A DNA stretch of 64,000 nt from Hydrogenothermaceae bacterium (GTDB taxonomy: Bacteria; Aquificota; Aquificia; Aquificales; Hydrogenothermaceae). The notes under the pieces are model-generated. The model was not told the DNA's origin. It saw only the letters and a program-made list of their open reading frames with translations, and searched no databases. Positions within the stretch are counted from its first letter, which is position 1; the number at the start of each line of letters is the position of its first letter. Shown here one piece after another: positions 20,027 to 63,124 of the stretch. The stretch spans positions 62,001-126,000 of the forward strand of contig JAOABH010000004.1 of the NCBI GenBank assembly GCA_026418455.1, read 5' to 3'. Position numbers and translations under genes: made by a program.

Positions 20027-20494
20027 ATGGACAGAAGATCATTTTTAAAAACAACGGCTTTTGCAACTGCCGGTTTAACATTGGGTGGTTCTGTTCTGTT
20101 TCCTTCAAATGCTGCAGAGCTTGTAGATAATCCGCCACCAAAGAAGCCTTACGAAGAAGCTTTAAAGGAGATCACAAAGGGTAAACCTGTCTCCGATTCT
20201 GATAAAGTTAAGTTAGTAGCTCCGGAGATAGCAGAGAATGGAGCGGTAGTTCCTATAACTGCCGAAGTGGAACTTCCTATTGAACAGGTTAAAGCTATAC
20301 ATATTCTTACTGACAAAAACCATAATACGAGAACATTGAGTGTGTATTTTACTCCTGCTAATGGAAAAGCCTACATATCAACAAGAATAAGACTTGCTGA
20401 AACTATGAATGTGGTAGCTATAGCAGAACTTGCAGATGGAAGCTTTATAAAGGCTCAAAAGCCTGTTAAAGTTACAATTGGTGGTTGCGGATAA
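20027..20494 (+). CDS. soxY: Sulfur-carrier protein SoxY
   Basis: A 155-residue Tat-exported protein (DRRSFLKT, residues 2-9) with the SoxY immunoglobulin-like domain. The substrate-binding swinging arm is the C-terminal IGGCG; the cysteine is one residue from the end, whereas the classic motif is GGCGG with two trailing glycines. SoxY forms a heterodimer with SoxZ, encoded next. It carries thiosulfate-derived sulfur between SoxAX and SoxB. GGAGG precedes the ATG. Confidence 0.94.
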   Translation: MDRRSFLKTTAFATAGLTLGGSVLFPSNAAELVDNPPPKKPYEEALKEITKGKPVSDSDKVKLVAPEIAENGAVVPITAEVELPIEQVKAIHILTDKNHNTRTLSVYFTPANGKAYISTRIRLAETMNVVAIAELADGSFIKAQKPVKVTIGGCG

Positions 20495-29536: not shown

Positions 29537-30403
29537 ATGGCTTATATAGAAGAAAGAGTGGAAAGTCTCGAAGAAACAGCAGATAAGCTTCTTGAATTAG
29601 TTAGAGAACTTTATAAAAGTATAAAAGAATCTGAAATCCAAAGAGAAAAAGACCGTCAAGAGTGGGAAAAACGTATGAAGGAGGTTGAGGAAAAAAGAGA
29701 AAAAGACCGTCAGGAGTGGAACGAGAAATTTGAAAGAGAAAGAAAAGAATGGAATGAAAAGTTTGAGAGAGAAAAGCAAGAGTGGAATGCAAAATTTGAA
29801 AGAGAAAAGCAAGAATGGAACGAGAAGTTTGAGAGGGAAAAGCAAGAATGGAATGAAAAGTTTGAAAGAGAAAAACAGCAACGGGAAGAAGAGTTTAAGA
29901 AATCTCAACAGGAATGGGATAGAAAGTTTGAACAGCAGAAAAGAGAAGATAGGAAAAAGTGGGAAGAAATGGTCCTGAGATTGGGAACTTTGGTTGAAGA
30001 TATAGTAGCACCTAATATTGAAACAATAGCAAAAAAATATTTTGGCTGTGTTGATGTTATATTTGACGGTATAAGGATTAAAAAGAGACATTTTGCAGAT
30101 AGAGGCAAAAGAAGGGAGTTTGATTTTATCCTTGTGTGTGATGATGTTATACTTCTGAATGAGACAAAAGCAAATCCAAGACCTGAGTATGCGAAGGAGT
30201 TTGTTGAGTTTGTGAAGAGTGGAGAGTTTTGGGATTACTTTCCGGAGTATAGGGATAAAAAACTTATACCTATATTTTCAACTCTTTATATGCCGGAGGA
30301 TATAGTTTCATATCTTACGAAGAATAAGATATATGCTCTTGCTATGAAAGGTGATGAGATGGATATTTTAAATTACAATGAGGTTTCAGGAGGATTAAGA
30401 TGA
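29537..30403 (+). CDS. Hendecad coiled-coil protein with nuclease-like C-terminal domain
   Basis: A 288-residue protein with two parts. Residues 1-150 form a highly charged coiled coil, including seven 11-residue units (residues 60-136) of the form EWNEKFEREKQ. Residues 155-285 form an alpha/beta domain with REFDFILVCDDVILLNETKA, whose D...E-x-K pattern resembles a PD-(D/E)xK nuclease core. Similar coiled-coil proteins with nuclease-like ends (often labelled DUF3782 or SMC-like) are known in thermophiles and cyanobacteria without a defined role. GGAGG precedes the ATG. It overlaps the ferritin-like gene by four bases. Function unknown. Confidence 0.75.
   Translation: MAYIEERVESLEETADKLLELVRELYKSIKESEIQREKDRQEWEKRMKEVEEKREKDRQEWNEKFERERKEWNEKFEREKQEWNAKFEREKQEWNEKFEREKQEWNEKFEREKQQREEEFKKSQQEWDRKFEQQKREDRKKWEEMVLRLGTLVEDIVAPNIETIAKKYFGCVDVIFDGIRIKKRHFADRGKRREFDFILVCDDVILLNETKANPRPEYAKEFVEFVKSGEFWDYFPEYRDKKLIPIFSTLYMPEDIVSYLTKNKIYALAMKGDEMDILNYNEVSGGLR
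29714..29944 (+). repeat. Seven 33-bp tandem units encoding hendecads
   Basis: Units of 33 bases begin at 29714, 29747, 29780, 29813, 29846, 29879 and 29912. Units 2-5 are nearly identical in protein (EWN[E/A]KFEREKQ) with mostly synonymous base changes; the last two have diverged. Eleven-residue periodicity predicts a straight or slightly right-handed coiled coil. Repeat number may vary between strains by slippage. Confidence 0.85.
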
Positions 30404-39592: not shown

Positions 39593-40507
39593 ATGAAGAA
39601 AATTTTAGCTCTCGCAGCGGCAGGACTTCTCTCAGTCTCCGCATCAAATGCAGCAGATCTACTTATCTCTGTAGATCAGGCAAAGGATCTTGTTGGTAAA
39701 GCCGTATTTGTCAATGGTGATGATCCTAAGGTTTTTGCTCAAGGACATATTCCAGGTTCAGTTAATGCTTTTGCTCACGACCTACACTATTTAAATGATA
39801 TTAAGAAGTGTGGTGGTCTTCCTATGTGTGAAAAGACAGCTGAGAAATTCATCTCTGAACTTGGAATTAGTAATAACTCACATGTAATTGCCTATGACGA
39901 TGGTAAAGGTCCAAACGCATCCGGTGTTTGGTTCTTCCTCTATCTATATGGTGTTGACAACGTTCAGATGTTAGATGGTGGATTTGCTACTTGGAAAGCA
40001 AAAGGACTTCCAGTAGAAACTGGTCCAGCTAAGAAACCTGCTCCAGGAAAATTTACTGTAAAAGTTAGAAAAGATATCCTTGCTACAAAAGATGAAGTTT
40101 TAAAAGCTTCTAAGGATCCTAATTACGTGATTCTCGATGCAAGAAGATTTGAGGAATATACTGGGAAAACTCTACTTGATGCTCTTGAAGCCCCAGGAAA
40201 ACATATACAGGTTGCAAGAGGTGGACACATTCCAGGAGCTAAATTCTTTGAGTGGAAGAAGATTGCAGGAAACCCTAACGGAGAAGCAGATAAGCCTCTA
40301 TTTAAACCTGTAGATCAGATTAAGAAACAACTTGAAAGAGCCGGTATCACTCCGGATAAAACAGTTATATCATACTGTCACGTAGGTCTTGGAAGAGGTT
40401 CATTTGTTTATGCAGCTTTAAAACTTGCAGGTTATCCTAAAGCTAAGGTTTATGTTGGTTCTTGGGATGAGTGGGGTAACGACTCATCTCTCCCTCTTGA
40501 GCAGTAA
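39593..40507 (+). CDS. Secreted two-domain thiosulfate sulfurtransferase (rhodanese)
   Basis: A 304-residue protein with signal peptide (MKKILALAAAGLLSVSASNA) and two rhodanese domains. The N-terminal one (about 25-145) has GHIPGSVNAF and AYDDGKGPNASGVWF; the C-terminal one has ARGGHIPGAKFF and the active loop YCHVGLGRGSFVYAA with the catalytic cysteine near residue 264. It transfers sulfane sulfur from thiosulfate, or another donor, to an acceptor in the periplasm. The GTG at 39566 is rejected; ATG at 39593 follows AAAGGAGG and starts the signal peptide. Confidence 0.9.
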   Translation: MKKILALAAAGLLSVSASNAADLLISVDQAKDLVGKAVFVNGDDPKVFAQGHIPGSVNAFAHDLHYLNDIKKCGGLPMCEKTAEKFISELGISNNSHVIAYDDGKGPNASGVWFFLYLYGVDNVQMLDGGFATWKAKGLPVETGPAKKPAPGKFTVKVRKDILATKDEVLKASKDPNYVILDARRFEEYTGKTLLDALEAPGKHIQVARGGHIPGAKFFEWKKIAGNPNGEADKPLFKPVDQIKKQLERAGITPDKTVISYCHVGLGRGSFVYAALKLAGYPKAKVYVGSWDEWGNDSSLPLEQ

Positions 40508-40565: not shown

Positions 40566-41702
40566 ATGGAACATTCTGAATATTTAATTAAAGGTATTTT
40601 AATGGGAGCCCTCTTTGGTTTCGTTCTGTTTAAAGTTGGAGCAATTAGATATTCGAGAGTAGAAGGTATGCTTTTATTGAGGGACCTTAAAATAATGAAA
40701 TTTGCTTTTACAGGAATAGCAACTGCTTCTATCATCTATGGTGTTGCAGCCATTTTTGGTATAGCTGAAAGTACAAATCTTATCCCAAGAGTAATGCCGT
40801 ATATGGGAATTGCTCATGTTATCGGTGGAGTTATGTTTGGTATAGCAATGGCTTCTGCAGGTTTCTGCCCTGGAACATGTGTTGCAAGGGTCGGTGCAGG
40901 TAAGTTTATATCTGCAGCTGGCGTTTTAGGTTTGATTGTTGGAATACTGGCATACAATGCAATTCAGCCATCTTTGGTTGAAGCGGGTATACTTGGACAC
41001 TCTAAGGATCTTACTCTCTATGGAGTTTTAGGTATATCGTTTGGTCCTTTGGCTGTAGCCTGGGGTGTTTTGTTCATTATTCTTGCTTTAGTGGCAGATT
41101 ATTTAGATCCGGCAAAGAAGCTCTATCAAGAGCAACAGTATAGTAGCTTTGCGGAAAAGCTTATAAAAGGTGAGTGGCACTGGGCTGTTGGTGGAGTAGC
41201 TGCAGGATCTATAATTGCTGCAGTCACAGCTCAAGGTGAGTATCTCGGTTTTTCAGGTGCTTTACTTGCTTTAGTTGGATGGATAGCTGATAGTTTAGGT
41301 CATCCTTTATCTAATGTTCTTCCAAAAATCACAGAAAGTACTATGTATAGAGCCGGTTTACTTATCGGTGTTCTTCCAGGAGCATTTTTAGCTGCTTTAA
41401 TATCCGGTAAATTTAAATTTGATCCTGTTCCTCCTGCTTTTGCACAAGCTGTTGCACCTCTCCCAATAGTTAGAATGGTTTTAGTTTTCTTTGCAGGGGT
41501 GTTCTTAGCATTAGGAGCTATGATAGGTGGAGGATGTACAACAGGAGCGTTCTTGGCAGCTTATCCTACTTTGTCAATAGGTAGTATGGTTATGTCTGCA
41601 ACTTACTTTATAGTTGGCGTTATCACTGCTAATCTTATTTATATGGGAAGATGGCAGAGATTTATAGAAGCTAAGAAAGTTTCTGAGGAAGTCTATGATT
41701 AA
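40566..41702 (+). CDS. YeeE/YedE (TsuA-type) sulfur-compound transporter
   Basis: A 378-residue inner-membrane protein with about nine to ten helices and the internal duplication typical of the family. Each half carries the conserved cysteine motif: AGFCPGTCVARVGAGK (near residue 100) and GGGCTTGAFLAAYP (near 324). TsuA homologues import thiosulfate through relay cysteines; many YeeE/YedE proteins are paired with sulfurtransferases (TsuB/TusA-like). Here the neighbours are periplasmic rhodaneses instead. GGAGG precedes the ATG at proper distance. Confidence 0.85.
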   Translation: MEHSEYLIKGILMGALFGFVLFKVGAIRYSRVEGMLLLRDLKIMKFAFTGIATASIIYGVAAIFGIAESTNLIPRVMPYMGIAHVIGGVMFGIAMASAGFCPGTCVARVGAGKFISAAGVLGLIVGILAYNAIQPSLVEAGILGHSKDLTLYGVLGISFGPLAVAWGVLFIILALVADYLDPAKKLYQEQQYSSFAEKLIKGEWHWAVGGVAAGSIIAAVTAQGEYLGFSGALLALVGWIADSLGHPLSNVLPKITESTMYRAGLLIGVLPGAFLAALISGKFKFDPVPPAFAQAVAPLPIVRMVLVFFAGVFLALGAMIGGGCTTGAFLAAYPTLSIGSMVMSATYFIVGVITANLIYMGRWQRFIEAKKVSEEVYD

Positions 41703-41717: not shown

Positions 41718-41855
41718 ATGAGTATGGTAGAGAGAGCTTTATTTTGGATAGCAATAATCATTTTAATAGTATCTGCTGTTGGAATGAATAAACAGGTTGG
41801 AGAGCTTGAGAAAAAGTTATCCCAGGTTTCTGCTACACAAGGAGGTAATCAGTGA
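41718..41855 (+). CDS. Single-helix small membrane protein (45 aa)
   Basis: A 45-residue open frame with GAGGTGAAG ahead of the ATG, 15 bases after the transporter stop. Residues 8-22 (LFWIAIIILIVSAVG) form one membrane helix, followed by a polar tail KQVGELEKKLSQ that could coil. Its stop overlaps the start of the next gene (ATGA). The coupled position between the transporter and anchored rhodanese supports a real gene, perhaps a small subunit or adaptor of the membrane complex. No family recognised. Confidence 0.65.
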   Translation: MSMVERALFWIAIIILIVSAVGMNKQVGELEKKLSQVSATQGGNQ

Positions 41856-42346
41856 TGAGTCCAAAAGTAGAGAGATCTATATATATAGTAGTTATAGCTA
41901 TATTAGCTGTTTATCTTTTAATCTTAGGAAAAAAACAGATTGAACTTCAAAAGAATATTCCTATAACAGCTGAGGAGCTGTATAAAAAGCTTTCTAATCC
42001 GAAGTTAAAAGTTCAGATAGTTGATGTAAGAGAACTAACCTCATCTGATGAAGTTGGCGGTTATGAGGACTCCAGAATACCTGGAGCTTTACCTTTTCCT
42101 AACTGTGATGAGTCAAAGATGAATACTGAAAACTTAAAAGATGCTCTCCAAAGGATAAACCCATATATATATACTGTAATTGTATCTACAGATGGAAATC
42201 CAGAGATATTTAAAAAATGTGCACAAAAATTCAATAATGCCCAGAATCTTGCCGGTGGTATGAAGGCATGGCAAGCAGCAGGTTTACCTGATGAATCTGG
42301 AGAATATACTCCACCTAAAGCTGGTGGTGGTGGTGGCTGTTTATAA
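41855..42346 (+). CDS. Membrane-anchored rhodanese without loop cysteine, C-terminal GGGGGCL
   Basis: A 163-residue protein with an N-terminal membrane anchor (about residues 8-24) and a single rhodanese domain in the periplasm (VQIVDVRE, RIPGALPF, GGMKAWQAAGLP). The active loop, which normally carries catalytic cysteine, reads IVSTDGNPEIF with no cysteine at that place; C107 and C127-type residues elsewhere are not in loop position. The C-terminus is PPKAGGGGGCL: a flexible glycine run ending with a cysteine one residue from the end. The tail recalls SoxY, and recurs in the gene at 47596. GTG at 41852 is in frame but the ATG has the better spacing. Probably a sulfur carrier rather than an enzyme (inference). 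Confidence 0.8.
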   Translation: MSPKVERSIYIVVIAILAVYLLILGKKQIELQKNIPITAEELYKKLSNPKLKVQIVDVRELTSSDEVGGYEDSRIPGALPFPNCDESKMNTENLKDALQRINPYIYTVIVSTDGNPEIFKKCAQKFNNAQNLAGGMKAWQAAGLPDESGEYTPPKAGGGGGCL

Positions 42347-42373: not shown

Positions 42374-45262
42374 ATGGCAATATCAAGAAGGGATTTTTTA
42401 AAGGTTATGTCAGTAACAGGTGCTGCAACTACTATGGGTACCTCTCAAGCTTTTGCAAAAAGTAATGCTCTGATAGTAGAAGATCCAAGGTCTTCTTATC
42501 CAAACAGCTCTTATGTTGAAAATATGTATAGAAAAGAGTTTGCATACACATATGGACAAAAGGAAGAGCATGGTACAGCTTATCACTGTGTAAACTGTCA
42601 AGGAAACTGTGCTTGGGATGTATGGGTTCAAAATGGTATCGTTACAAGGGAAAATCAATCTGCTAACTATCCACTTTTAAACCCTAAGATTCCAGATGCA
42701 AACCCAAGAGGTTGTAATAAAGGTGTTCAACACTCTCAAGTTATGTATGAAAAAGACAGAATCCTCTATCCTATGAAGAGAGTTGGGGAAAGAGGAGAAG
42801 GAAAGTGGAAAAGAATTTCTTGGGATGAAGCTATTACAGAAGTTGCAACAAAGATATATGAAACAATGTTAACTGTAGGTCCTCAAGGAAATTATATACA
42901 CGTTGGAGCAGGAATGCTAACAGAGGCAAGAGCTGCTTCTGGAAAGAGACTTGGAACATTACTTGGTGCAGTTAGACCTTACATAGCTTCTTATGTTGGT
43001 GATATGTTCCCAGGAGTTTCTCTAGTCTATGGTGAAGGTAACATAGGTTTCTCTTATGATTTTGTTTATACTGCAAATGTTCAGATATGGTGGGGACAAG
43101 ATCCTAATAAAACAAGGATACCGGATGCTCACTGGGTTTGGGAAGGAAAGTATAACGGTGGAAAGGTTATAGTTATAACTCCAGATTACAATGCAACCTG
43201 TAAAAGTGCAGATCTTTGGGTTCCTGTAAGAGCTGGATATGACGGCTTTTTGGCTATGGCAATAATAAATGAGATAATACAGAAAAAACTCTATAAACCT
43301 AACTTTGTAAAAGTATTTACGGATCTTCCTTTCTTGGTAAGGCTTGATAACAAAAAGCTTTTAAGACTATCTGACATCGACACAAACGATCCACAGTTTG
43401 ATAAAGAGATTTTCCACAATATGGAAGAAAAGGCACACGGAAAACATTTTGAAGAGCACGAAGTTTTCATATCTTACAACCTCAAAAATGGTAAATTTAC
43501 AATAATGCCAGGTTCAGAAGGTAATCCTGTTAAAACATTGAGACTTAAAGATGTTGGATGGGACATAGACCCTGCTTTAGAGGGAGTGTATGAAGTTAAA
43601 CTAAAAGATGGCTCTAAAGTGAAAGTTACACCTGCTTTTGAGTTATTGAAAGCCGAGGCTCAGAAATTTGCTGCTGAGAAGGTGTTCAAACTTACCAACG
43701 TCCATCCAAAAATAGTAGAACAGCTTGCAAAGGATATTGCACTTCCTAAGGTTGTAACATTATCTATGGGATTCACCATAGGTAAATACTTTAACGGTAT
43801 GCTTGTTCAAAGAGCTATAGCTTCTATAACTCCTCTATGTGGAAGACTTGGACCTTATGGAGGATTTAACTCTGAAAACGAATGGTCTATAAGTGGTCTT
43901 GACATCATATCTGGATTTGCTGGTAAGTACCAACATAGGTTTGCTTCTGGATTTGTAAGTGAGTTTGTCCTTGGAAATATGATGAAAGATTTTGATAAAC
44001 TCTACGAAGAAGATACATTCAAACAGGTTATGGGAGTATCAAAAGAAGAGTATAAAAAGAAAGTCCAAGAGATGTTGTCTAAATCTGAAGGAGACGAAGG
44101 AATAGGTAAAGGTAAACCTCACTGGAATGATGTTCAGACATTCCTCTTATTTGCAGATGCTAGATTTAGAAGAAACAAAGGTTCTTCTTACAAAAAGGCA
44201 TTTTTAGAGAAGGCTAAATTTATAGCTTATGTTGATTTCAGAATGTCTGATTTTGCTAACTATGCAGATATACTTCTTCCTGCGAAATCTCACTATGAAG
44301 TTTGGGATTTAAGAACAAACCCAGGTTATCACAGGTTTGCAAACCTTGCTCATCCACCTGCAAATCTGAAACCTGTTGGTGAAGCTAAATCAGAGTGGGA
44401 AATCTGTACTATGATTGTTGAGAAAATCCAAGAGATAGCAATGAAAAAGTATAAAGAGACCGGAGATGAGAAGTACATTAAGATACCGGATCCTAAGTTC
44501 TCAAAAACTGGATATAGAGATTTAGATAAAGTTGTAGAAGAGTTTACTATCGGTGGGAAGCTTAGAACAGATAAAGATGCAGTAGAACTTGCTCTTGAAC
44601 ATACTGCACAGTTCAAACCTAACACAATAGAGTCAATGTTTAAGAGAGGTGGTTATCTAACTTTAAATGAAAAAGCAGGAAAATCATCTCCACTTTATCC
44701 TGATAAACCTTACAACGTATTTGAAAACAACCTATATCTCTATGAAAGATTTGAAACATTATCAGGAAGAATCACTTACTATGTTGATGATGATCTATGG
44801 ATACAGGAAGGAGCTAACGTACCAACAGCTAAGGAACCAATTAGACCAAGAAAATATCCATTTGTTTTAATGACTCCTCACGCAAGATGGTCAATCCACT
44901 CAACTTACAAAACGTCTACACTACTTCTTAGATTACAAAGAGGAAAACCTTATGTAATGATAAATCCAGAAATGGCTAAAAAGAAAGGTATTAAAGATGG
45001 AGATGAGATAAGAGTGTATAACTCTCTTGGTGAGTTTTACGCAATGGCTAAAATATATCCATCTTGCCCTAAAGATGCGATAATTCTTGAAGATGGATGG
45101 GAACCTTTCTTCTATAAAGGCAGAAAAGGACACAACGAGGTTGTGGCTTCTCCTCTTAACTTGCTTGAACTTTCAGACGGTTGGGGACACTTGAAGTTTG
45201 GTGGTAACTGGGATGGAAACCAGCATGCTTATGAAACTTCTGTAGACATAGAAAAAGTATAA
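42374..45262 (+). CDS. Type II DMSO-reductase-family molybdoenzyme, catalytic alpha subunit
   Basis: A 962-residue Tat-exported (SRRDFLKV) Mo-bis-MGD enzyme. The first cluster motif has a histidine, H71-x3-C75-x3-C79 and C114, as in NarG, SerA, DdhA and EbdA, placing it in the type II family; D210 (YVGDMFPG) is the probable molybdenum ligand. The beta and haem-binding gamma subunits follow in order. Known members act on nitrate, selenate, chlorate, dimethyl sulfide or ethylbenzene; none of these is shown here. The rhodaneses and sulfur transporter upstream suggest a sulfur substrate (inference). GTG at 42371 is in frame; ATG at 42374 has better spacing to GGAGG. No dedicated chaperone gene is adjacent. 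Confidence 0.88.
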   Translation: MAISRRDFLKVMSVTGAATTMGTSQAFAKSNALIVEDPRSSYPNSSYVENMYRKEFAYTYGQKEEHGTAYHCVNCQGNCAWDVWVQNGIVTRENQSANYPLLNPKIPDANPRGCNKGVQHSQVMYEKDRILYPMKRVGERGEGKWKRISWDEAITEVATKIYETMLTVGPQGNYIHVGAGMLTEARAASGKRLGTLLGAVRPYIASYVGDMFPGVSLVYGEGNIGFSYDFVYTANVQIWWGQDPNKTRIPDAHWVWEGKYNGGKVIVITPDYNATCKSADLWVPVRAGYDGFLAMAIINEIIQKKLYKPNFVKVFTDLPFLVRLDNKKLLRLSDIDTNDPQFDKEIFHNMEEKAHGKHFEEHEVFISYNLKNGKFTIMPGSEGNPVKTLRLKDVGWDIDPALEGVYEVKLKDGSKVKVTPAFELLKAEAQKFAAEKVFKLTNVHPKIVEQLAKDIALPKVVTLSMGFTIGKYFNGMLVQRAIASITPLCGRLGPYGGFNSENEWSISGLDIISGFAGKYQHRFASGFVSEFVLGNMMKDFDKLYEEDTFKQVMGVSKEEYKKKVQEMLSKSEGDEGIGKGKPHWNDVQTFLLFADARFRRNKGSSYKKAFLEKAKFIAYVDFRMSDFANYADILLPAKSHYEVWDLRTNPGYHRFANLAHPPANLKPVGEAKSEWEICTMIVEKIQEIAMKKYKETGDEKYIKIPDPKFSKTGYRDLDKVVEEFTIGGKLRTDKDAVELALEHTAQFKPNTIESMFKRGGYLTLNEKAGKSSPLYPDKPYNVFENNLYLYERFETLSGRITYYVDDDLWIQEGANVPTAKEPIRPRKYPFVLMTPHARWSIHSTYKTSTLLLRLQRGKPYVMINPEMAKKKGIKDGDEIRVYNSLGEFYAMAKIYPSCPKDAIILEDGWEPFFYKGRKGHNEVVASPLNLLELSDGWGHLKFGGNWDGNQHAYETSVDIEKV

Positions 45263-45276
45263 AAGGAGGTCGTTAA

Positions 45277-46428
45277 ATGTCAAAAAGACAACTTGCGATG
45301 GTAATGGATTTAAATAAATGTATAGGTTGCCAAACCTGTACAGTGGCATGTAAAACTCAGTGGACAAACAGAAATGGTAGAGAGTATATGTATTGGAATA
45401 ACGTTGAAACACATCCGGGATATGGATATCCAAGAAATTGGATGGAGGCTGGTGGTGGTTTTGACGAAAATGGTAATCTAAGAGATGGAATTATCCCGGA
45501 TATGGTATTAGATTATGGTGTTCCCTGGGATTACAACCACGATGAACTGTTTAATGGATCATTACTACAGGCTAATACAAACGATTTAGAGTGGGGACCA
45601 AACTGGGATGAAGATGTAGGTGGTGGTGAGTATCCAAACTCTTACTTCTTTTACATCCCAAGGATATGTAATCACTGCTCTAACCCTGGATGTCTTGCAG
45701 CATGTCCAAGAGAGGCAATATTCAAGAGAGAGCAAGATGGTATAGTTTTAGTTGATCTTGAAAGATGTCAAGGCTATAGATACTGTATAGCAGGATGTCC
45801 TTACAAGAAGATATACTTTAACCCTAAGATATCAAAATCGGAAAAATGTATATTCTGTTTCCCAAGGGTTGAGAGAGGTCTTCCACCTGCCTGTGCCCAT
45901 CAGTGTGTAGGTAGAATAAGATTTGTTGGATTTTTAGATGACGAAGAAGGTCAAGTTTACAAGCTTGTTCATAAGTATAAAGTTGCTTTACCTCTAAGAC
46001 CTGACTTTGGAACACAACCAAATGTTTACTACGTACCACCTTTATTTGAGCCACCAAAATTTGACGACAATATGCAACCTATAGAAGGATCAAGAAGAAC
46101 ACCAATTGAGTACCTTGAACTTCTATTCGGTAAAGAGGTTCATCAAGCTCTTGAAACTCTCAGAAGAGAGCAGGAAAAGAGAGCAAGAGGAGAAGAGTCT
46201 GAGCTTATGGATATTCTAATTGCATACTCCCATAGGGATATGTTTAGACTTGACAACAACTACTACCAAGGTTTAGTTGATAAGAAACTTAAGGGAACAG
46301 AGTTTTTCAGAGTTATAGACCAGAGATATTTACATGGTGCTAATACTCAAAGGATAGAGATAAAGGATTACACATTCCACGAAAAGATACTTCCTCAAAA
46401 AGAAAAAGCTAAAAATACTCACCATTAA
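45277..46428 (+). CDS. Type II molybdoenzyme beta subunit, four Fe-S clusters
   Basis: A 383-residue iron-sulfur protein of the NarH/SerB/DdhB/EbdB type. First cluster motif C15-x2-C18-x2-C21-x3-C25 (CIGCQTC...), followed by an insert, then CNHCSNPGCLAACP, CQGYRYCIAGCPYK (one cysteine replaced by Y, the feature of the [3Fe-4S] site in this type) and CIFCFPRVERGLPPAC. No signal peptide: it is exported as a complex with the Tat-bearing alpha subunit. AAGGAGG precedes the ATG 15 bases after alpha. Confidence 0.9.
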   Translation: MSKRQLAMVMDLNKCIGCQTCTVACKTQWTNRNGREYMYWNNVETHPGYGYPRNWMEAGGGFDENGNLRDGIIPDMVLDYGVPWDYNHDELFNGSLLQANTNDLEWGPNWDEDVGGGEYPNSYFFYIPRICNHCSNPGCLAACPREAIFKREQDGIVLVDLERCQGYRYCIAGCPYKKIYFNPKISKSEKCIFCFPRVERGLPPACAHQCVGRIRFVGFLDDEEGQVYKLVHKYKVALPLRPDFGTQPNVYYVPPLFEPPKFDDNMQPIEGSRRTPIEYLELLFGKEVHQALETLRREQEKRARGEESELMDILIAYSHRDMFRLDNNYYQGLVDKKLKGTEFFRVIDQRYLHGANTQRIEIKDYTFHEKILPQKEKAKNTHH

Positions 46429-46481: not shown

Positions 46482-47582
46482 ATGAAATTAAAGCTGCTTA
46501 CGATGGGAGTTATAGGAGTAGTAGCTACAACTTTTGCTGACAGTTTTGAGGATGATGTTATAAATGTTAAGAAAGCTCCTAAGTTTGATATATCTACTGT
46601 AGAGTTTAAAAAAGTTAATGTTTATCCACAAGCTACTGTCAGGTTAAACGATAAAAATGCAAAATCTGCAGATATAGATGAGATTCAAGTAGGGTCAGTG
46701 TATACAGGTAAGGAAATTTATCTGGTTATCAAGTGGAAAGATGACACTTTTTCTGTTCAGCCTAAATTGACTACAAATAAATATGGAGATGGTGTATCTG
46801 TTCAATTCCCTGTTTCTTACGGCAAAGGTAAAACATTACCATACATAGGTATGGGTAATGAAGGTAATCCCGTTGTGGTCTATCTTAGAAAGATGGTAGA
46901 AAATAGGGATTATGTTAAATCTTTTGTTTCTGAAGCTTTTGGATCATTAACAGAACAGAGAGATAATACATTCTCTCTTGAGATGAATTATGATAAAGAT
47001 AAAAAAGAGTATATAGCTATTTTCAAGAGAGTAGTTAAACCTACAGATTTAAAACCTGGAATAATTCCAGTTGCCTTTGCTGTTTGGGATGGGGACAGTT
47101 TAAACAGAGGTGGAAAGAAAAATATATCAAGTTGGAAGTTCTTAAAGATAGAAGGTGTTAATCCGGATAAATCTTACATATCGTATCTATCCTGGGGATA
47201 CGGTAATATAGGAGATCCTAACAGAGGAAAGGAGCTGATGGTTCAAAATGGCTGTAATGGTTGCCACAACTATGCAGATCAGAACAATGCTTTACCTGAT
47301 TTAGCTCCTAACTTATCTAAGATAGGTGGTTACTCTAATCCAGTTTATCTAAGAGAGTCTATAATAAATCCATCTGCAGTAGTGATAAGGAACCTCAACA
47401 TAAACAGACATTACGACAAATCTCAGCAACCTGATAAAAATGGTGCATATCCTAATAATGAGATGTATACCTGGTATACAAAGGATGAGAAAGGAAAGAG
47501 AGTATCTAAGATGCCACCGTACAATTACTTGTCAGAACAGGATGTTAACGATATAGTAGCTTATCTGAAAACCTTAAAATAG
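46482..47582 (+). CDS. Gamma subunit: ethylbenzene-dehydrogenase-type haem b domain fused to cytochrome c
   Basis: A 366-residue exported protein (signal peptide ending FA near residue 19). Residues 40-235 match the haem b-binding gamma subunit of type II enzymes (EbdC/DdhC/SerC); M124 in IGMGNEGNP is a likely axial ligand. Residues 245-366 form a class I cytochrome c with C258-x2-C261-H262 and a distal SKMPPYNYLSEQDVNDIVAYLK. Known gamma subunits are about 210-240 residues without the haem c domain. The fusion would pass electrons directly from haem b to haem c. AAGGAGG precedes the ATG. Confidence 0.85.
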   Translation: MKLKLLTMGVIGVVATTFADSFEDDVINVKKAPKFDISTVEFKKVNVYPQATVRLNDKNAKSADIDEIQVGSVYTGKEIYLVIKWKDDTFSVQPKLTTNKYGDGVSVQFPVSYGKGKTLPYIGMGNEGNPVVVYLRKMVENRDYVKSFVSEAFGSLTEQRDNTFSLEMNYDKDKKEYIAIFKRVVKPTDLKPGIIPVAFAVWDGDSLNRGGKKNISSWKFLKIEGVNPDKSYISYLSWGYGNIGDPNRGKELMVQNGCNGCHNYADQNNALPDLAPNLSKIGGYSNPVYLRESIINPSAVVIRNLNINRHYDKSQQPDKNGAYPNNEMYTWYTKDEKGKRVSKMPPYNYLSEQDVNDIVAYLKTLK

Positions 47583-47595
47583 GAGGTTATTGATT

Positions 47596-47997
47596 ATGAA
47601 AAAGTTAATTTTATCTACATTTATGTTTTTTTCTTTGATCTCTTTCTCTTTTGCTACTGAAAATCCAGGAGAGGAGATAGAACTTTCAAGTGCTGTGATA
47701 ACTGCAAAGTCCTGTGCTGAAAAGGCAAAGGAAACAGGAAGCTTTGAACTTCTATCGTCTTGCCCTCCGGCCGAAGCAGCTAAAACTGGATATGTTATCT
47801 ACGATGTGACAGAAAATACATTCTATGCAATAGCTCCAAAAAACATTTATCTATTTGAACTTGATGAAGGCTTTGGTGGAAACATAGATGTAAGCGGAAA
47901 TATAGTTGGTAAAGAAGGAGACCTACCTGTTATAGAAGCTAAAGAGTATAAAATATCTCCGAAACCAAAAGCTGGATTCTTTAAAGGATGTCTCTAA
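47596..47997 (+). CDS. Secreted small protein with C-terminal PKAG-x3-GCL tail
   Basis: A 133-residue protein with signal peptide (MKKLILSTFMFFSLISFSFA). Three cysteines: SC near residue 33, SSCPP near 48, and the one at 132 in the C-terminal KPKAGFFKGCL. This tail matches that of the cysteine-free-loop rhodanese (PPKAGGGGGCL) at P, K, A, G and GCL. The domain between has a short beta-rich pattern (VIYDVTENTFYAIAPKNIYLFE) that I do not recognise. It ends the operon, before a strong terminator. TTG at 47590 is too near the ribosome site; ATG at 47596 is chosen. Possibly the soluble sulfur carrier partner (inference). Confidence 0.75.
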   Translation: MKKLILSTFMFFSLISFSFATENPGEEIELSSAVITAKSCAEKAKETGSFELLSSCPPAEAAKTGYVIYDVTENTFYAIAPKNIYLFELDEGFGGNIDVSGNIVGKEGDLPVIEAKEYKISPKPKAGFFKGCL

Positions 47998-48121: not shown

Positions 48122-48757
48122 ATGAGACTGGGTTTTTTAGTGGATTTAAGTAGGTGTATGGGTTGTATGGCCTGTGCTGTTTCCTGTAAGGCAGAAAATG
48201 ATGTCCCTCTTAACAGCTGGAGGCTTAGGGTTAAATATATAGATCAGGGAGAGTTTCCGGAAGTTAAAAGACATTTTGTTCCTCTCAGATGTAATCACTG
48301 TGAAAACGCACCTTGTGAGAGAATCTGTCCTGTAAGTGCCCTTCACTATCTACCAAATGGTATAGTAAACGTAGATCATAACAGATGTATAGGTTGTGCT
48401 TCTTGTATGATGGCATGTCCTTACAACGCTATCTATATTGACCCTCTAACAAACTCTGCTGATAAATGTACATACTGTGCTCATAGGATTGAGGTAGGAA
48501 TGATGCCTGCATGTGTTGTTGCATGTCCTACACATGCAAATATATTTGGTGACTTAGATGACCCTGAAAGTGAAATATCAAAATATCTAAAAGAACATAG
48601 AGATGTTATGGTTAGAAAACCTGAGCTTAATACAAAACCTAAACATTTCTATGTAAGAGGTTCTACTGTAGCACTTGATCCTCTTGCATCAGAAAGACCA
48701 GAAGGTTATACACTCTTTACAGAAGTTAAGTTTTTAGACCATATAGGAGGGCATTAA
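48122..48757 (+). CDS. Psr/Sre-type Fe-S beta subunit (four [4Fe-4S])
   Basis: A 211-residue ferredoxin-like electron-transfer subunit of the PsrB/TtrB/DmsB family. It has four cysteine groups: C12-x2-C15-x2-C18-x3-C22, CNHCENAPCERICP, CIGCASCMMACP, and CTYCAHRIEVGMMPACVVACP, enough for four clusters. No signal peptide, so it is probably exported together with the Tat-bearing catalytic subunit. It overlaps no gene; the membrane anchor follows after two bases. Confidence 0.88.
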   Translation: MRLGFLVDLSRCMGCMACAVSCKAENDVPLNSWRLRVKYIDQGEFPEVKRHFVPLRCNHCENAPCERICPVSALHYLPNGIVNVDHNRCIGCASCMMACPYNAIYIDPLTNSADKCTYCAHRIEVGMMPACVVACPTHANIFGDLDDPESEISKYLKEHRDVMVRKPELNTKPKHFYVRGSTVALDPLASERPEGYTLFTEVKFLDHIGGH

Positions 48758-48759
48758 TC

Positions 48760-49641
48760 ATGTTGGGAGCAGAAGTAACCTTTGATGTTGCATTACCAAA
48801 AGTCGTATGGGGATGGCTTGTTTCTACAAATATGTGGGCAAAGAGTATAGCTACAGGAACATTCTTATTAGGGCTTTACTTTATAAAGAGATATCCAGAG
48901 AATGATAACTTTTTTAGAAAGTGGATTCCTATACTTGGACTTATATTTATAGGTATAACCCTTCTTGTTACAGTCTTAGACTTACATCATATGTTTAGAT
49001 TTTGGAAGATATTCTTATTTGCTCACTTTACCTCTGCTGTTACACTTGGAGCTTGGGTGGTATCTGGTTTTGTTATTGTTTTACTTATTTCTTTCTGGTC
49101 TTGGATAACAGGGAACAAAAAACTGTTTGATAAGGTTATGATACCCGGCTCAGTTTTGGCCTTTTTCTCAACTATATACACAGCAGGAATTATGGGACAG
49201 TCTACTGCAAGAGAATTCTGGGTTTTTCCTGCAGAGATGATTCAGATGCTGTTATCTGCTGCCATAGCAGGTTCTGCAACTTATCTTTTGATTATGTCAA
49301 TCTATAATATTCAAAATGAAAACATTAAGAGAGAACTTGGATATATCCTTATAGGTTCTGCGTTTTTATCTGGTTTAATGTATGTAGGAGAGCTTCTTTT
49401 CTCTAAAATGCACAGTGAGTTTTCTTACGAAACAGCAAAGATTTTACTTTTTGGAGAGATTGCACCTTTTTTCTGGATAGGTTTGTTCCTTACTATTGTT
49501 ATTCCTATTGTTTTAGTAGGGATAGCTAATGAGAAGAAGAAGTATGAATATATACCTATAGGTTCTGTATCGGCGTTGATTGGGCTTTGGTTTATAAAAC
49601 ATGCATGGTTGTTGGCACCTCAGATGTTACCATTAAGTTAA
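48760..49641 (+). CDS. NrfD/PsrC-type membrane anchor, quinone site
   Basis: A 293-residue inner-membrane protein with eight predicted helices. The family (NrfD, PsrC, TtrC, SreC) anchors the Fe-S/Mo subunits and exchanges electrons with quinone. Features: a VLDLHHMFRFW segment (D and H near residue 68), a WDH-like STAREFWVFPAEMIQ near 150, and a C-terminal helix. GGAGGGC precedes the ATG. Completes a membrane-bound three-subunit complex with its neighbours. Confidence 0.88.
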   Translation: MLGAEVTFDVALPKVVWGWLVSTNMWAKSIATGTFLLGLYFIKRYPENDNFFRKWIPILGLIFIGITLLVTVLDLHHMFRFWKIFLFAHFTSAVTLGAWVVSGFVIVLLISFWSWITGNKKLFDKVMIPGSVLAFFSTIYTAGIMGQSTAREFWVFPAEMIQMLLSAAIAGSATYLLIMSIYNIQNENIKRELGYILIGSAFLSGLMYVGELLFSKMHSEFSYETAKILLFGEIAPFFWIGLFLTIVIPIVLVGIANEKKKYEYIPIGSVSALIGLWFIKHAWLLAPQMLPLS

Positions 49642-49653
49642 GGAGGGTGAAAT

Positions 49654-52600
49654 ATGATAAGAACAACAAGAAGAAACTTTTTAAAAGGAACAGCTGCGGT
49701 TGTTGGTGGTGCAGCTTTAGCAAAGGGTGTGTTTGAGAAAACCCAAGCGGATAATAAAGTTGCAAACAATCAAGAGTTAACATTCGAACCAAAACATTTA
49801 GATTACTATCCACCTTTTGAAAAGTGGAATGACTGGAAAGAACCTGCCGGAGATTACTGGAAAAAAGAAGGTGGAGCATTAAGAGATGGTGTAAAGCTGA
49901 TAAACTATATCATAGTTCCAACTGTATGTAATAACTGTGAAGCGGCTTGTGGTCTCACAGCTTGGATAGATAAAGATACCATGACTGTTAGAAAGTTTAT
50001 GGGTAATCCATTCCACAGTGGAAGTATGGGGAGAAACTGTGCAAAAGGCTATGCTGCTCTTGCTCAGATGTATGATCCAGACAGAATACCTTTCCCATTA
50101 AAGAGAGCTCCTGGTTCAAAGAGAGGAGAAAATAAATGGGTAAGGACAACATGGGAGGAAGCCCTTGAAACTATTGGAAAAAAGATGAGGGAAGTTTTAC
50201 AAAGAGGTGATGAAATATCTAAGAAACAGATAATGTACCAAGTTGGAAGACCCAATGAAAATGGTTTTCATGTAAGGAGAGTTGTTTGGAGTTGGGGAGT
50301 AGATGGAAGAAATACTCATACCAACATCTGCTCTTCAAACGGAAGATTTGGAAATATAGTCACCGTTGGAGATGACAGAACATCTCCTGATTTTGCAAAT
50401 TCAAGGTTGATAATCCTTGTATCTTCCCACGCAGCAGATGCAGGTCACTACTATCAACAACATGCAGGATATATTGCAGATGCAAGGGCAAAAGGTGCTA
50501 AGCTCGTTGTTATTGACCCACGAATGTCTAATTCTGCTGGAATGGCAGACCTCTGGATACCTGCATGGCCAGGAACTGAGGTAGCTATAAACCTTGCTAT
50601 GGTAAGCAGGTTAGTCAGAGAAGAAAAGTTCAATAAAAAATTTGTGGAAAGGTGGTTTAACTGGAAACAGTTTATATCTGATAAAGAGTATTTAAGTTAT
50701 CTAAAAGAAAAAGGATTTTTAACAGAGATACCTTCTGGAGATAGTTTTGATGATTTTGTTGCTGTTTTAAAGGATCTGTATAAAGATTACACATTTGAAT
50801 GGGCAGCTCAGGAAGCAAAAATACCAGTTAATATGCTTGATAAACTTTATGAGATGATACTTTGGGCAGGAGATAGGATAACACAGTATCATTGGAGAGC
50901 AGTTGCGGCTGGAAACAGAGGCGGTTGGATGGGTGCAGGTAGAACGGGAACTATGCTTATGGCATTTATGGGGGCTCTTGGTGGACCTGGTGGAACCGGT
51001 TGGTATAAATGGCATACAATCTCCTTAGGAGATAAGGGTGGCGATGCTTGTATGGCAGATACTCCTGAGCCTGTTAAAGCTTGGAATGAGCTTGAATGGC
51101 CTCCTGAATGGCCAATGTCTTCTTATGAGCTTAGCTACCTACTACCACATCTTCTTATGGATGACGAATGGAGAAACAGGTGGAAAGAGAAGGGTCTAAA
51201 AATTCCTGATAAAGTTGAAGTATGGTTTTCAAGAATATACAACCCTGTATGGATAAATCCTGATGGATTTAGATGGGTAGAAGCTCTTAAAGATGAAGAT
51301 AAATTTGGTTTAACTATCTATATGTCTCCAAACTGGGCTGAAACAGCGTTTTACTGTGACTATATTTTACCAATGGGACTTGCTGGAGAGAGACACGACC
51401 AACATTCAGAACCTACAAAACCTGAGAAATGGACTGGATTTAGGCAACCTGTATTAAGAGTTGCTCTTCAAAAGATGGGCTGGAAACCAAACGATCCTGC
51501 TAAAGCAACATTGGAAGCTCATAAAAAAGTTGGTCTTGGAGAGATATGGGAGGAGGATGAGTTCTTTGTAAATCTTGCCTTTGCTATAGACCCAGATGGT
51601 TCTCTTGGAATAAAAAAATACTGGGAGTCTAAAAATAATCCAGGTAAACCTGTTACTATGGAAGAGTATTACAATGCTGCATTCTCAAAATTACCTAAGT
51701 TGTCTCAATTATGTCAAGAGATGGGAATAACTCCTTATGAGTATATGAGGGACAGAGGTGCATGGACAGAAGCTACAGATGTTTATAATGTCCATGAGAA
51801 ACCATTACCTTACGATCCAGATAAGAGAGCATATCAGTATGATGGAAAGTGGATACCGGAAAGTGAGATAAAGATAGAGGGAGATCTTGTCTACCATATA
51901 GAAGAAGGTGGTAAAAAACATAAGATAGGTGTGGTAAAAGATGGAAAAATAGTCAATGGTTGGAAAACACCTTCTGGACATATTGAGTTTTACTCAAAAA
52001 CATTAAAAGATTGGAAGTGGCCTGAGTATGCTATACCTATCTATCCGAGAAATAAGGAAGAGAGGAAACAGATGATACACATCGTTTCTCAAGTCCATCA
52101 CGACTATATGACTGAGCCAAATGCCTTTGCTTTAAATCCAATATTTAGACTACCTTATTTAGTCCATACCAGATCTGTAAATGCTAAGTGGCTTATGGAG
52201 ATTGGGCAGAACCATAACCCACTCTGGATATATGAAAAAGATGCTCAGAGATTAGGTATAAAGAGAGGAGATGCTGTAAAAGTTAGGGTTGTAGATACAT
52301 TGACAGGTATAGAAACTGGATACTTTGTAGCTATGGCTGTACCTACACAGGCAACAAGACCTGGGGTAGTTGCTTGCTCTCACCATAACGGAAGATGGAG
52401 AATTATAAACGAAGTTAAGATAGATGGATTTGAACATGAACTTGGTGTAATGAGAATGGGAAGTGTGCTTGTAGATATAAAATCCCAAAACGGTAAATAC
52501 TTTATGAGAACAAAGGAAGGTGTGAAACCTTTCAGATCTTGGCAGTTTCCTGAGTTTAACAAAGATACAGAACAGATATGGTGGAAAGGGACTACTGGAG

Positions 52601-52869
52601 TGTTCCAAAATGCTGTGTTCCCTGCAAACCCTGACCCACTTTCCGGAATGCACTGTTGGCATAAGAAAGTCCTTATAGAAAAGGCAGGTCCTGAAGATAA
52701 GATAGGAGATATTTTCGTTGACATAAACAAAACCTGGGAAGTTTATAGAGCTTGGAGAGATCAACTTACAAGACCTGCTCCGGGACCAGACAATCTCAGA
52801 AGACCAAAATGGATGCCAAGACCTTGGTTCCCTATTGCTGACGAATACTGGAAATTCCCATCTGCTTAA
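49654..52869 (+). CDS. Psr/Sre/Ttr-type molybdoenzyme catalytic subunit
   Basis: A 1071-residue Tat-exported (TRRNFLKG) Mo-bis-MGD enzyme. The first cluster is C92-x2-C95-x3-C99 and C129 (all cysteine, so not type II); the predicted Mo ligand is C226 in TNICSSNG. Large size (over 1000) resembles sulfur reductase SreA, tetrathionate reductase TtrA, SoeA or arsenate-type enzymes. Gene order (beta, anchor, alpha) is that of ttrBCA, but the TorD-like and polyferredoxin genes downstream match the sre cluster of sulfur-reducing thermophiles. I favour sulfur/polysulfide reductase; substrate is not proven. A terminator follows at 52879. Confidence 0.85.
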   Translation: MIRTTRRNFLKGTAAVVGGAALAKGVFEKTQADNKVANNQELTFEPKHLDYYPPFEKWNDWKEPAGDYWKKEGGALRDGVKLINYIIVPTVCNNCEAACGLTAWIDKDTMTVRKFMGNPFHSGSMGRNCAKGYAALAQMYDPDRIPFPLKRAPGSKRGENKWVRTTWEEALETIGKKMREVLQRGDEISKKQIMYQVGRPNENGFHVRRVVWSWGVDGRNTHTNICSSNGRFGNIVTVGDDRTSPDFANSRLIILVSSHAADAGHYYQQHAGYIADARAKGAKLVVIDPRMSNSAGMADLWIPAWPGTEVAINLAMVSRLVREEKFNKKFVERWFNWKQFISDKEYLSYLKEKGFLTEIPSGDSFDDFVAVLKDLYKDYTFEWAAQEAKIPVNMLDKLYEMILWAGDRITQYHWRAVAAGNRGGWMGAGRTGTMLMAFMGALGGPGGTGWYKWHTISLGDKGGDACMADTPEPVKAWNELEWPPEWPMSSYELSYLLPHLLMDDEWRNRWKEKGLKIPDKVEVWFSRIYNPVWINPDGFRWVEALKDEDKFGLTIYMSPNWAETAFYCDYILPMGLAGERHDQHSEPTKPEKWTGFRQPVLRVALQKMGWKPNDPAKATLEAHKKVGLGEIWEEDEFFVNLAFAIDPDGSLGIKKYWESKNNPGKPVTMEEYYNAAFSKLPKLSQLCQEMGITPYEYMRDRGAWTEATDVYNVHEKPLPYDPDKRAYQYDGKWIPESEIKIEGDLVYHIEEGGKKHKIGVVKDGKIVNGWKTPSGHIEFYSKTLKDWKWPEYAIPIYPRNKEERKQMIHIVSQVHHDYMTEPNAFALNPIFRLPYLVHTRSVNAKWLMEIGQNHNPLWIYEKDAQRLGIKRGDAVKVRVVDTLTGIETGYFVAMAVPTQATRPGVVACSHHNGRWRIINEVKIDGFEHELGVMRMGSVLVDIKSQNGKYFMRTKEGVKPFRSWQFPEFNKDTEQIWWKGTTGVFQNAVFPANPDPLSGMHCWHKKVLIEKAGPEDKIGDIFVDINKTWEVYRAWRDQLTRPAPGPDNLRRPKWMPRPWFPIADEYWKFPSA

Positions 52870-62608: not shown

Positions 62609-63124
62609 ATGAAATTTTTAAAATCTAAAATCATCTTTATATTGGTGATAAGCCTTTTATCAACATTGAAAGCTCAAGAGTTAGCGGAAAAATATTTGGT
62701 GATAAGCCTTTTATCAACATTGAAAGCTCAAGAGTTAGCGGAAAAATATGAAGTTAAACTTATAGAAAAGATAGTTATGGGTATAACCGGAAAAAGTTAT
62801 CCTAAAATATGTACTGTAAATTATCCTGTTGATAGGATAAAAGAGTATTCAACATATCTTGTTATATCTTCCTGTAAACAAGCTGATATGGTGATAGCAG
62901 GAACTGATGAGTTAGAGAGCTTTGATAAACCTATTTTATTAATTGGTGATACAGAAATCAAGGATAGAAAAGATGTAATAGGTGCTATCTTTTGGAAAAA
63001 AGGAAGACCTCAGATCATATTTATAGATAAAAATCTGAAACGCTTTGATATTCAGATTCCAAGAGAATACAACAAATATATAATAAAAAAGGACTCTTTA
63101 AAATATGCTGAAGCTGTTTTTTAG
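62609..63124 (+). CDS. YfiR-like (DUF4154) periplasmic protein with duplicated signal region
   Basis: A 171-residue protein. The N-terminal signal peptide is unusual: LVISLLSTLKAQELAEKY occurs twice in exact tandem (54-base duplication, 62642-62749), so there are two hydrophobic cores and two KAQEL cleavage regions. The rest resembles YfiR/DUF4154 proteins: an early IEKIVMGITGKSYPKICTVNY, a SSCKQADMVIAG and KPILLIGDTEIKDRKDVIGAIFWKKGRPQIIFIDKN (pieces). Known YfiR proteins restrain a partner diguanylate cyclase; here the next gene, overlapping by 20 bases, encodes one. Assignment is moderate. Confidence 0.6.
   Translation: MKFLKSKIIFILVISLLSTLKAQELAEKYLVISLLSTLKAQELAEKYEVKLIEKIVMGITGKSYPKICTVNYPVDRIKEYSTYLVISSCKQADMVIAGTDELESFDKPILLIGDTEIKDRKDVIGAIFWKKGRPQIIFIDKNLKRFDIQIPREYNKYIIKKDSLKYAEAVF
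62642..62749 (+). repeat. Exact 54-bp tandem duplication
   Basis: Copy 1 spans 62642-62695 and copy 2 62696-62749 with no mismatch. It is in frame, adding 18 residues to the signal peptide of the YfiR-like protein. The complete identity shows a very recent event or an assembly artefact. Confidence 0.95.

Follow-up and report, generated by a model that had tools for sequence, protein, structure and literature searches.

In Allochromatium, DsrC carries a persulfide on its penultimate cysteine only, within a flexible C-terminus that is loaded by a sulfurtransferase (PMC3397948), and in SoxY the intermediates are carried on the cysteine of a C-terminal GGCGG arm (PMC6067878, PMC5336275). The LbpA proteins, lipoate-binding carriers of the sHdr pathway that also rely on swinging-arm carriage in sulfur oxidation, often have a Gly-flanked C-terminal cysteine (PMC6067878). 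The protein described here, RHOD, is alike in anatomy to DsrC/TusE (PF04358), a small protein in which a redox enzyme receives sulfur from the penultimate cysteine of a flexible C-terminal arm (PMC3397948). However, it differs from it in having a rhodanese body, a membrane anchor and a GGGGG hinge, and in lying next to a molybdenum enzyme and not DsrAB. With SoxY (TIGR04488) it shares a Gly-rich C-terminal arm bearing one cysteine, and Sox genes are present in the same organism, but the order of residues is GGGGGCL with respect to GGCGG and its putative partner is an enzyme of the type II DMSO-reductase family. As compared to LbpA, it has no lipoyl domain. A Pfam scan of RHOD gave no PF04358 match, and the NCBIfam scan did not find the SoxY domain (TIGR04488), giving just a weak match to a rhodanese model.

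Hydrogenothermaceae are hot-spring and vent bacteria. The window analysed here, a stretch of 64,000 nucleotides from a member of this family, contains a cluster of genes, all on the + strand, that begins with a periplasmic two-domain thiosulfate/mercaptopyruvate-type sulfurtransferase (39593–40507), which has a signal peptide and keeps the loop cysteine of its C-terminal domain intact (YCHVGLGR). This is followed by a YeeE/YedE-type sulfur transporter (Pfam Sulf_transp, 40566–41702), a 45-residue ORF with one predicted membrane segment (41718–41855), RHOD (41855–42346), and the three subunits of a molybdenum enzyme. These are the molybdopterin alpha subunit MoA (42374–45262), the iron-sulfur beta subunit MoB (45277–46428) and an EB_dh-type heme subunit with a fused cytochrome c domain (46482–47582). 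A secreted protein, here called the GCL protein (47596–47997), comes next, and then a second complex (48122–52869) made of an FeS subunit (48122–48757), an NrfD-like subunit (48760–49641) and a Psr/Phs-like molybdopterin subunit (49654–52869), which always adjoins the cluster. This gene order was fixed in all of the 15 neighbourhoods compared (13.5–20 kb each), and the cluster is kept across Hydrogenothermaceae, in Persephonella, Sulfurihydrogenibium, Hydrogenothermus and their relatives. The link of RHOD to the Mo alpha subunit, on which the original prediction proposed to dock it, is thus supported as a constant genomic adjacency.

Some features of these neighbourhoods were observed besides. 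The 45-residue ORF is conserved in sequence too, and it begins much as RHOD does (ER, a hydrophobic segment, LEKK). One relative (L063, G006:C48) has the YeeE-type transporter gene three times in tandem. The FeS subunit of the second complex is 94–99% identical across the family, as compared to 72–87% for its NrfD-like partner, an unusually strong constraint. In the complete 1.64-Mb genome of a Sulfurihydrogenibium-group strain (L098, G025:C1:1307001-1326000), a deletion joins the small-ORF region to MoA; RHOD and residues 1–122 of MoA, including the Tat signal and the FeS motif, are gone, and the rest of the cluster stays. This shows that a joint loss of RHOD and the start of MoA is possible in this strain, and nothing more.

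The 163 residues of RHOD comprise a predicted membrane helix (3–34), a rhodanese domain (38–142) and a tail. Pfam Rhodanese matched residues 38–142 with E = 5.3e-10 and 40.1 bits (cut-off 22.2), and the AlphaFold2 model (mean pLDDT 76) retrieved rhodaneses from the PDB in a Foldseek search with a probability of 1.00. The fold and most motifs (DVR, IPGA, NLxGGxxAW) are common to the single-domain rhodaneses (PF00581). In contrast, where active rhodaneses of the same genome and of relatives read YCxSGNRS, the aligned loop of RHOD reads VSTDGNPE. On this alignment the catalytic cysteine corresponds to S111 and the loop glycine to G114 (S111-T-D-G114, 42185–42196, +), and the loop arginine of active rhodaneses is replaced by a proline. 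Both S111 and G114 are identical in all members of a set of 26 distinct homologues, whose identity goes down to 47%, and the loop cysteine is absent from every one of them. RHOD therefore has the rhodanese fold but lacks the loop cysteine of active sulfurtransferases, and the alignment shows a specific Cys-to-Ser replacement. The original prediction of a rhodanese domain that had lost this cysteine is confirmed by these data, and the homologues, in which a cysteine might have been found elsewhere in the active loop, contain none there.

The tail is also an addition with respect to the single-domain rhodaneses. Residues 157–163 (GGGGGCL; codons and stop at 42323–42346, +) are unchanged in the 26 homologues, as compared to 0.78 on average over the rhodanese domain, and form the longest invariant run in RHOD. 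The codons differ among homologues (3–4 for each Gly, 2 for Cys, 3 for Leu); since all of them vary synonymously, it is the peptide that is under selection. In the AlphaFold2 model, residues 150–163 are predicted to be disordered (pLDDT <50), so that C162, the penultimate residue, lies in a flexible C-terminus. A segment that is predicted to be disordered and yet is invariant points to a mobile functional arm. The C-terminal cysteine and the mobility of the tail, both claimed beforehand, hold in the alignment and in the predicted structure; disorder, which would have spoken against the claim had it come with poor conservation, is here accompanied by complete identity.

However, C162 is not the sole invariant cysteine of RHOD, since C84 (42104–42106, +), which directly follows strand 3, and C122, which lies in the helix behind the loop, are equally conserved in the 26 homologues; the original prediction had missed both. 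For this reason the further claim that the tail cysteine is the only exposed thiol is unproven, and the original inference of a reactive cysteine moved to a mobile arm is supported in part. The pocket of rhodaneses is bordered by the parallel strands at their C-terminal ends, and from the fold C84 probably lies on the rim of what was once this pocket. The charges beside the helix, with means of +1.0 on the N side and +1.3 on the C side, favour neither side of the membrane for the domain. Nevertheless, a periplasmic location of RHOD is likely, because MoA has a Tat signal (SRRDFLK) and both the sulfurtransferase and the GCL protein start with signal-peptide-like sequences. A role of RHOD as a carrier for MoA requires this: its domain must share the membrane side with the Tat-exported MoA.

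Among the family models run on the Mo complex, TIGR03479 matched with E = 1.8e-241 and 804 bits, below its cut-off of 984.75, TIGR03478 with 526.9 bits, above its cut-off, and TIGR03477 with 91 bits, below its cut-off. MoA is placed within the type II DMSO-reductase family, with the subtype left unassigned. It groups with the perchlorate, chlorate and ethylbenzene enzymes, and among solved structures it is closest to enzymes for perchlorate reduction or ethylbenzene oxidation. The cluster has the same alpha, beta and heme subunits, Mo-ligand Asp and Tat signal as the known members of the family (PcrA, 4ydd; ethylbenzene dehydrogenase, 2ivf; ClrA); it differs from them in the fusion of its heme subunit with cytochrome c and in the constant RHOD and GCL neighbours, and MoA is only about 36% identical to ClrA. 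A 2016 study by Youngblut et al. is said to have described D170 of PcrA as the Mo ligand and F164 and Y165 as part of an 'aromatic gate'. At the position of D170, all 28 sequences have an aspartate (D210 of MoA), which by this correspondence we take to be the Mo ligand. At the positions of F164 and Y165 they have I204 and A205 (28/28), which agrees with a more open entry. Since the heme subunit ends in a cytochrome c domain, its electrons may well leave to cytochrome c.

The GCL protein, encoded by the fourth gene downstream of RHOD, had been missed by the original prediction. In its homologues the C-terminus is always GFFKGCL, preceded by PKPK, and two further cysteines, C40 and C56, are invariant. 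It belongs to no Pfam family, its profile gave no match among solved structures, and the fold search returned weak OB-barrel-like matches (best E = 0.15), so that an OB-like barrel is a prediction only. A scan of the whole genome (1.535 Mb) for Gly-Cys-Leu-stop gave 56 matches in the DNA, two of which are real ORF ends, those of RHOD and of the GCL protein, both inside the cluster. GCL as a general C-terminal signal of the genome was ruled out, the other in-frame stretches being of 28 codons at most.

As regards sulfur oxidation in general, SoxX, SoxY (with a GGCG end), SoxA and SoxB are encoded in the same window between 19051 and 23457, the true SoxY at 20027–20494. DsrC/TusE (PF04358) is absent from the genome, and no protein of the genome exceeded the curated cut-off for SoxC; the three PF00174 proteins examined fall below it, which is compatible with a missing SoxCD and is not proof of it. 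A SorA-like sulfite dehydrogenase was found at G000:C3:17153-17662. With no DsrC, no SoxC over the cut-off and only a SorA-like enzyme, a known route for sulfane sulfur appears to be missing, and sulfane sulfur would therefore need another oxidase. Two other ORFs of the window drew attention: the start of one (62609–62760) carries a tandem duplication of the signal-peptide region (VISLLSTLKAQELAEKY twice), and another (29537–30403) contains many tandem coiled-coil repeats of the EKQEWNEKFER type.

Considering that RHOD, though unrelated to DsrC and SoxY, has a like anatomy, with a penultimate cysteine and a Gly hinge, and that a sulfurtransferase and a redox enzyme adjoin it, we propose that it is an anchored pseudo-enzyme acting as sulfur carrier, whose C162 arm takes sulfane sulfur to or from the Mo enzyme; we give this reading about an even chance. 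The body of RHOD, held by the N-terminal helix and unable to form a loop persulfide after the Cys-to-Ser change, would be a docking and specificity module, and the GGGGG hinge would present C162 as a sulfane-sulfur (persulfide) arm. The sulfurtransferase of the cluster would load C162, and the arm, docking on MoA, would hand the sulfur to the MoA complex, which would oxidise it; electrons would then leave by way of the FeS subunit and the heme/cytochrome c subunit. Any sulfite that the Mo enzyme produced might be passed on to SorA. The GCL protein, with its like end, may be a second carrier or an exchange partner. Taken together, RHOD, the Mo enzyme and the second GCL end suggest an undescribed way of sulfur carriage to a molybdenum enzyme.

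Other readings have to be weighed against this proposal. A docking or assembly peptide would be an equally possible role for an invariant tail. In this case GGGGGCL and KGCL would fit into set places on the Mo complex or on its maturation factors, with the cysteine as a structural ligand or in a disulfide; even a bond between the two GCL ends is conceivable. Both ends are in fact invariant up to the last Leu and in their exact place, as is expected when a fixed site reads them, and the genes of RHOD and of the GCL protein flank those of the Mo subunits. However, five glycines in a row look more like a hinge than like an epitope for binding, and the cluster holds many sulfur-transfer genes, so that we judge a docking peptide unlikely. 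Alternatively, C84 may be the reactive thiol, as a new catalytic cysteine with C162 as its resolving partner through an intramolecular disulfide or trisulfide. Its probable position at the pocket and the invariance of both residues would fit such a pair, and in organisms with DsrAB two cysteines of DsrC are conserved (PMC3397948), which may act in this way. On the other hand, the tail is unplaced in the model, which gives no C84–C162 distance; we regard this pairing as quite improbable.

The direction of the reaction may also be the opposite, with the Mo complex reducing a sulfur compound, such as thiosulfate or polysulfide, on the arm. This would agree with the perchlorate and chlorate reductases among the type II relatives and with the Psr/Phs-like complex that adjoins the cluster. 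However, the cytochrome c domain joined to the heme subunit suits oxidation better, as do the periplasmic Sox enzymes encoded in the genome, and a reductive role seems to us very improbable.

The genomes that encode RHOD, MoA and the GCL protein are almost the same ones for all three, and they belong to a single family. A survey of 391 genomes from 261 genera gave no RHOD in other families, nor was it found outside Hydrogenothermaceae in the genome collection when searched by peptide patterns, which limit the reach of this search; the few weak matches listed are ordinary rhodaneses, and the viral contigs contained no relatives. Outside the family, the MoA that comes nearest (36%, L168) has no rhodanese or GCL protein downstream, and its upstream side ends with the contig. 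A search of open-licence papers found no published description of the cluster. RHOD is a real and selected protein, undescribed in the literature searched, whose architecture is a variant among peptide-arm sulfur carriers and whose function we infer.

The picture proposed is of a dead enzyme fold turned into a platform, with the thiol on its tail. If the carrier proposal is true, an enzyme of the type II DMSO-reductase family would act on protein-bound sulfur, whereas its known members act on small molecules, and two scaffolds would be added to the peptide-arm sulfur carriers. More tentatively, and with more doubt than confidence, we suggest that Hydrogenothermaceae have a periplasmic Mo-dependent system for the oxidation of sulfane sulfur, in which two unrelated GCL-ended carriers, RHOD and the secreted barrel, replace SoxCD and Dsr. 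Such a system could explain how sulfane sulfur is disposed of in Hydrogenothermaceae without SoxCD and Dsr.
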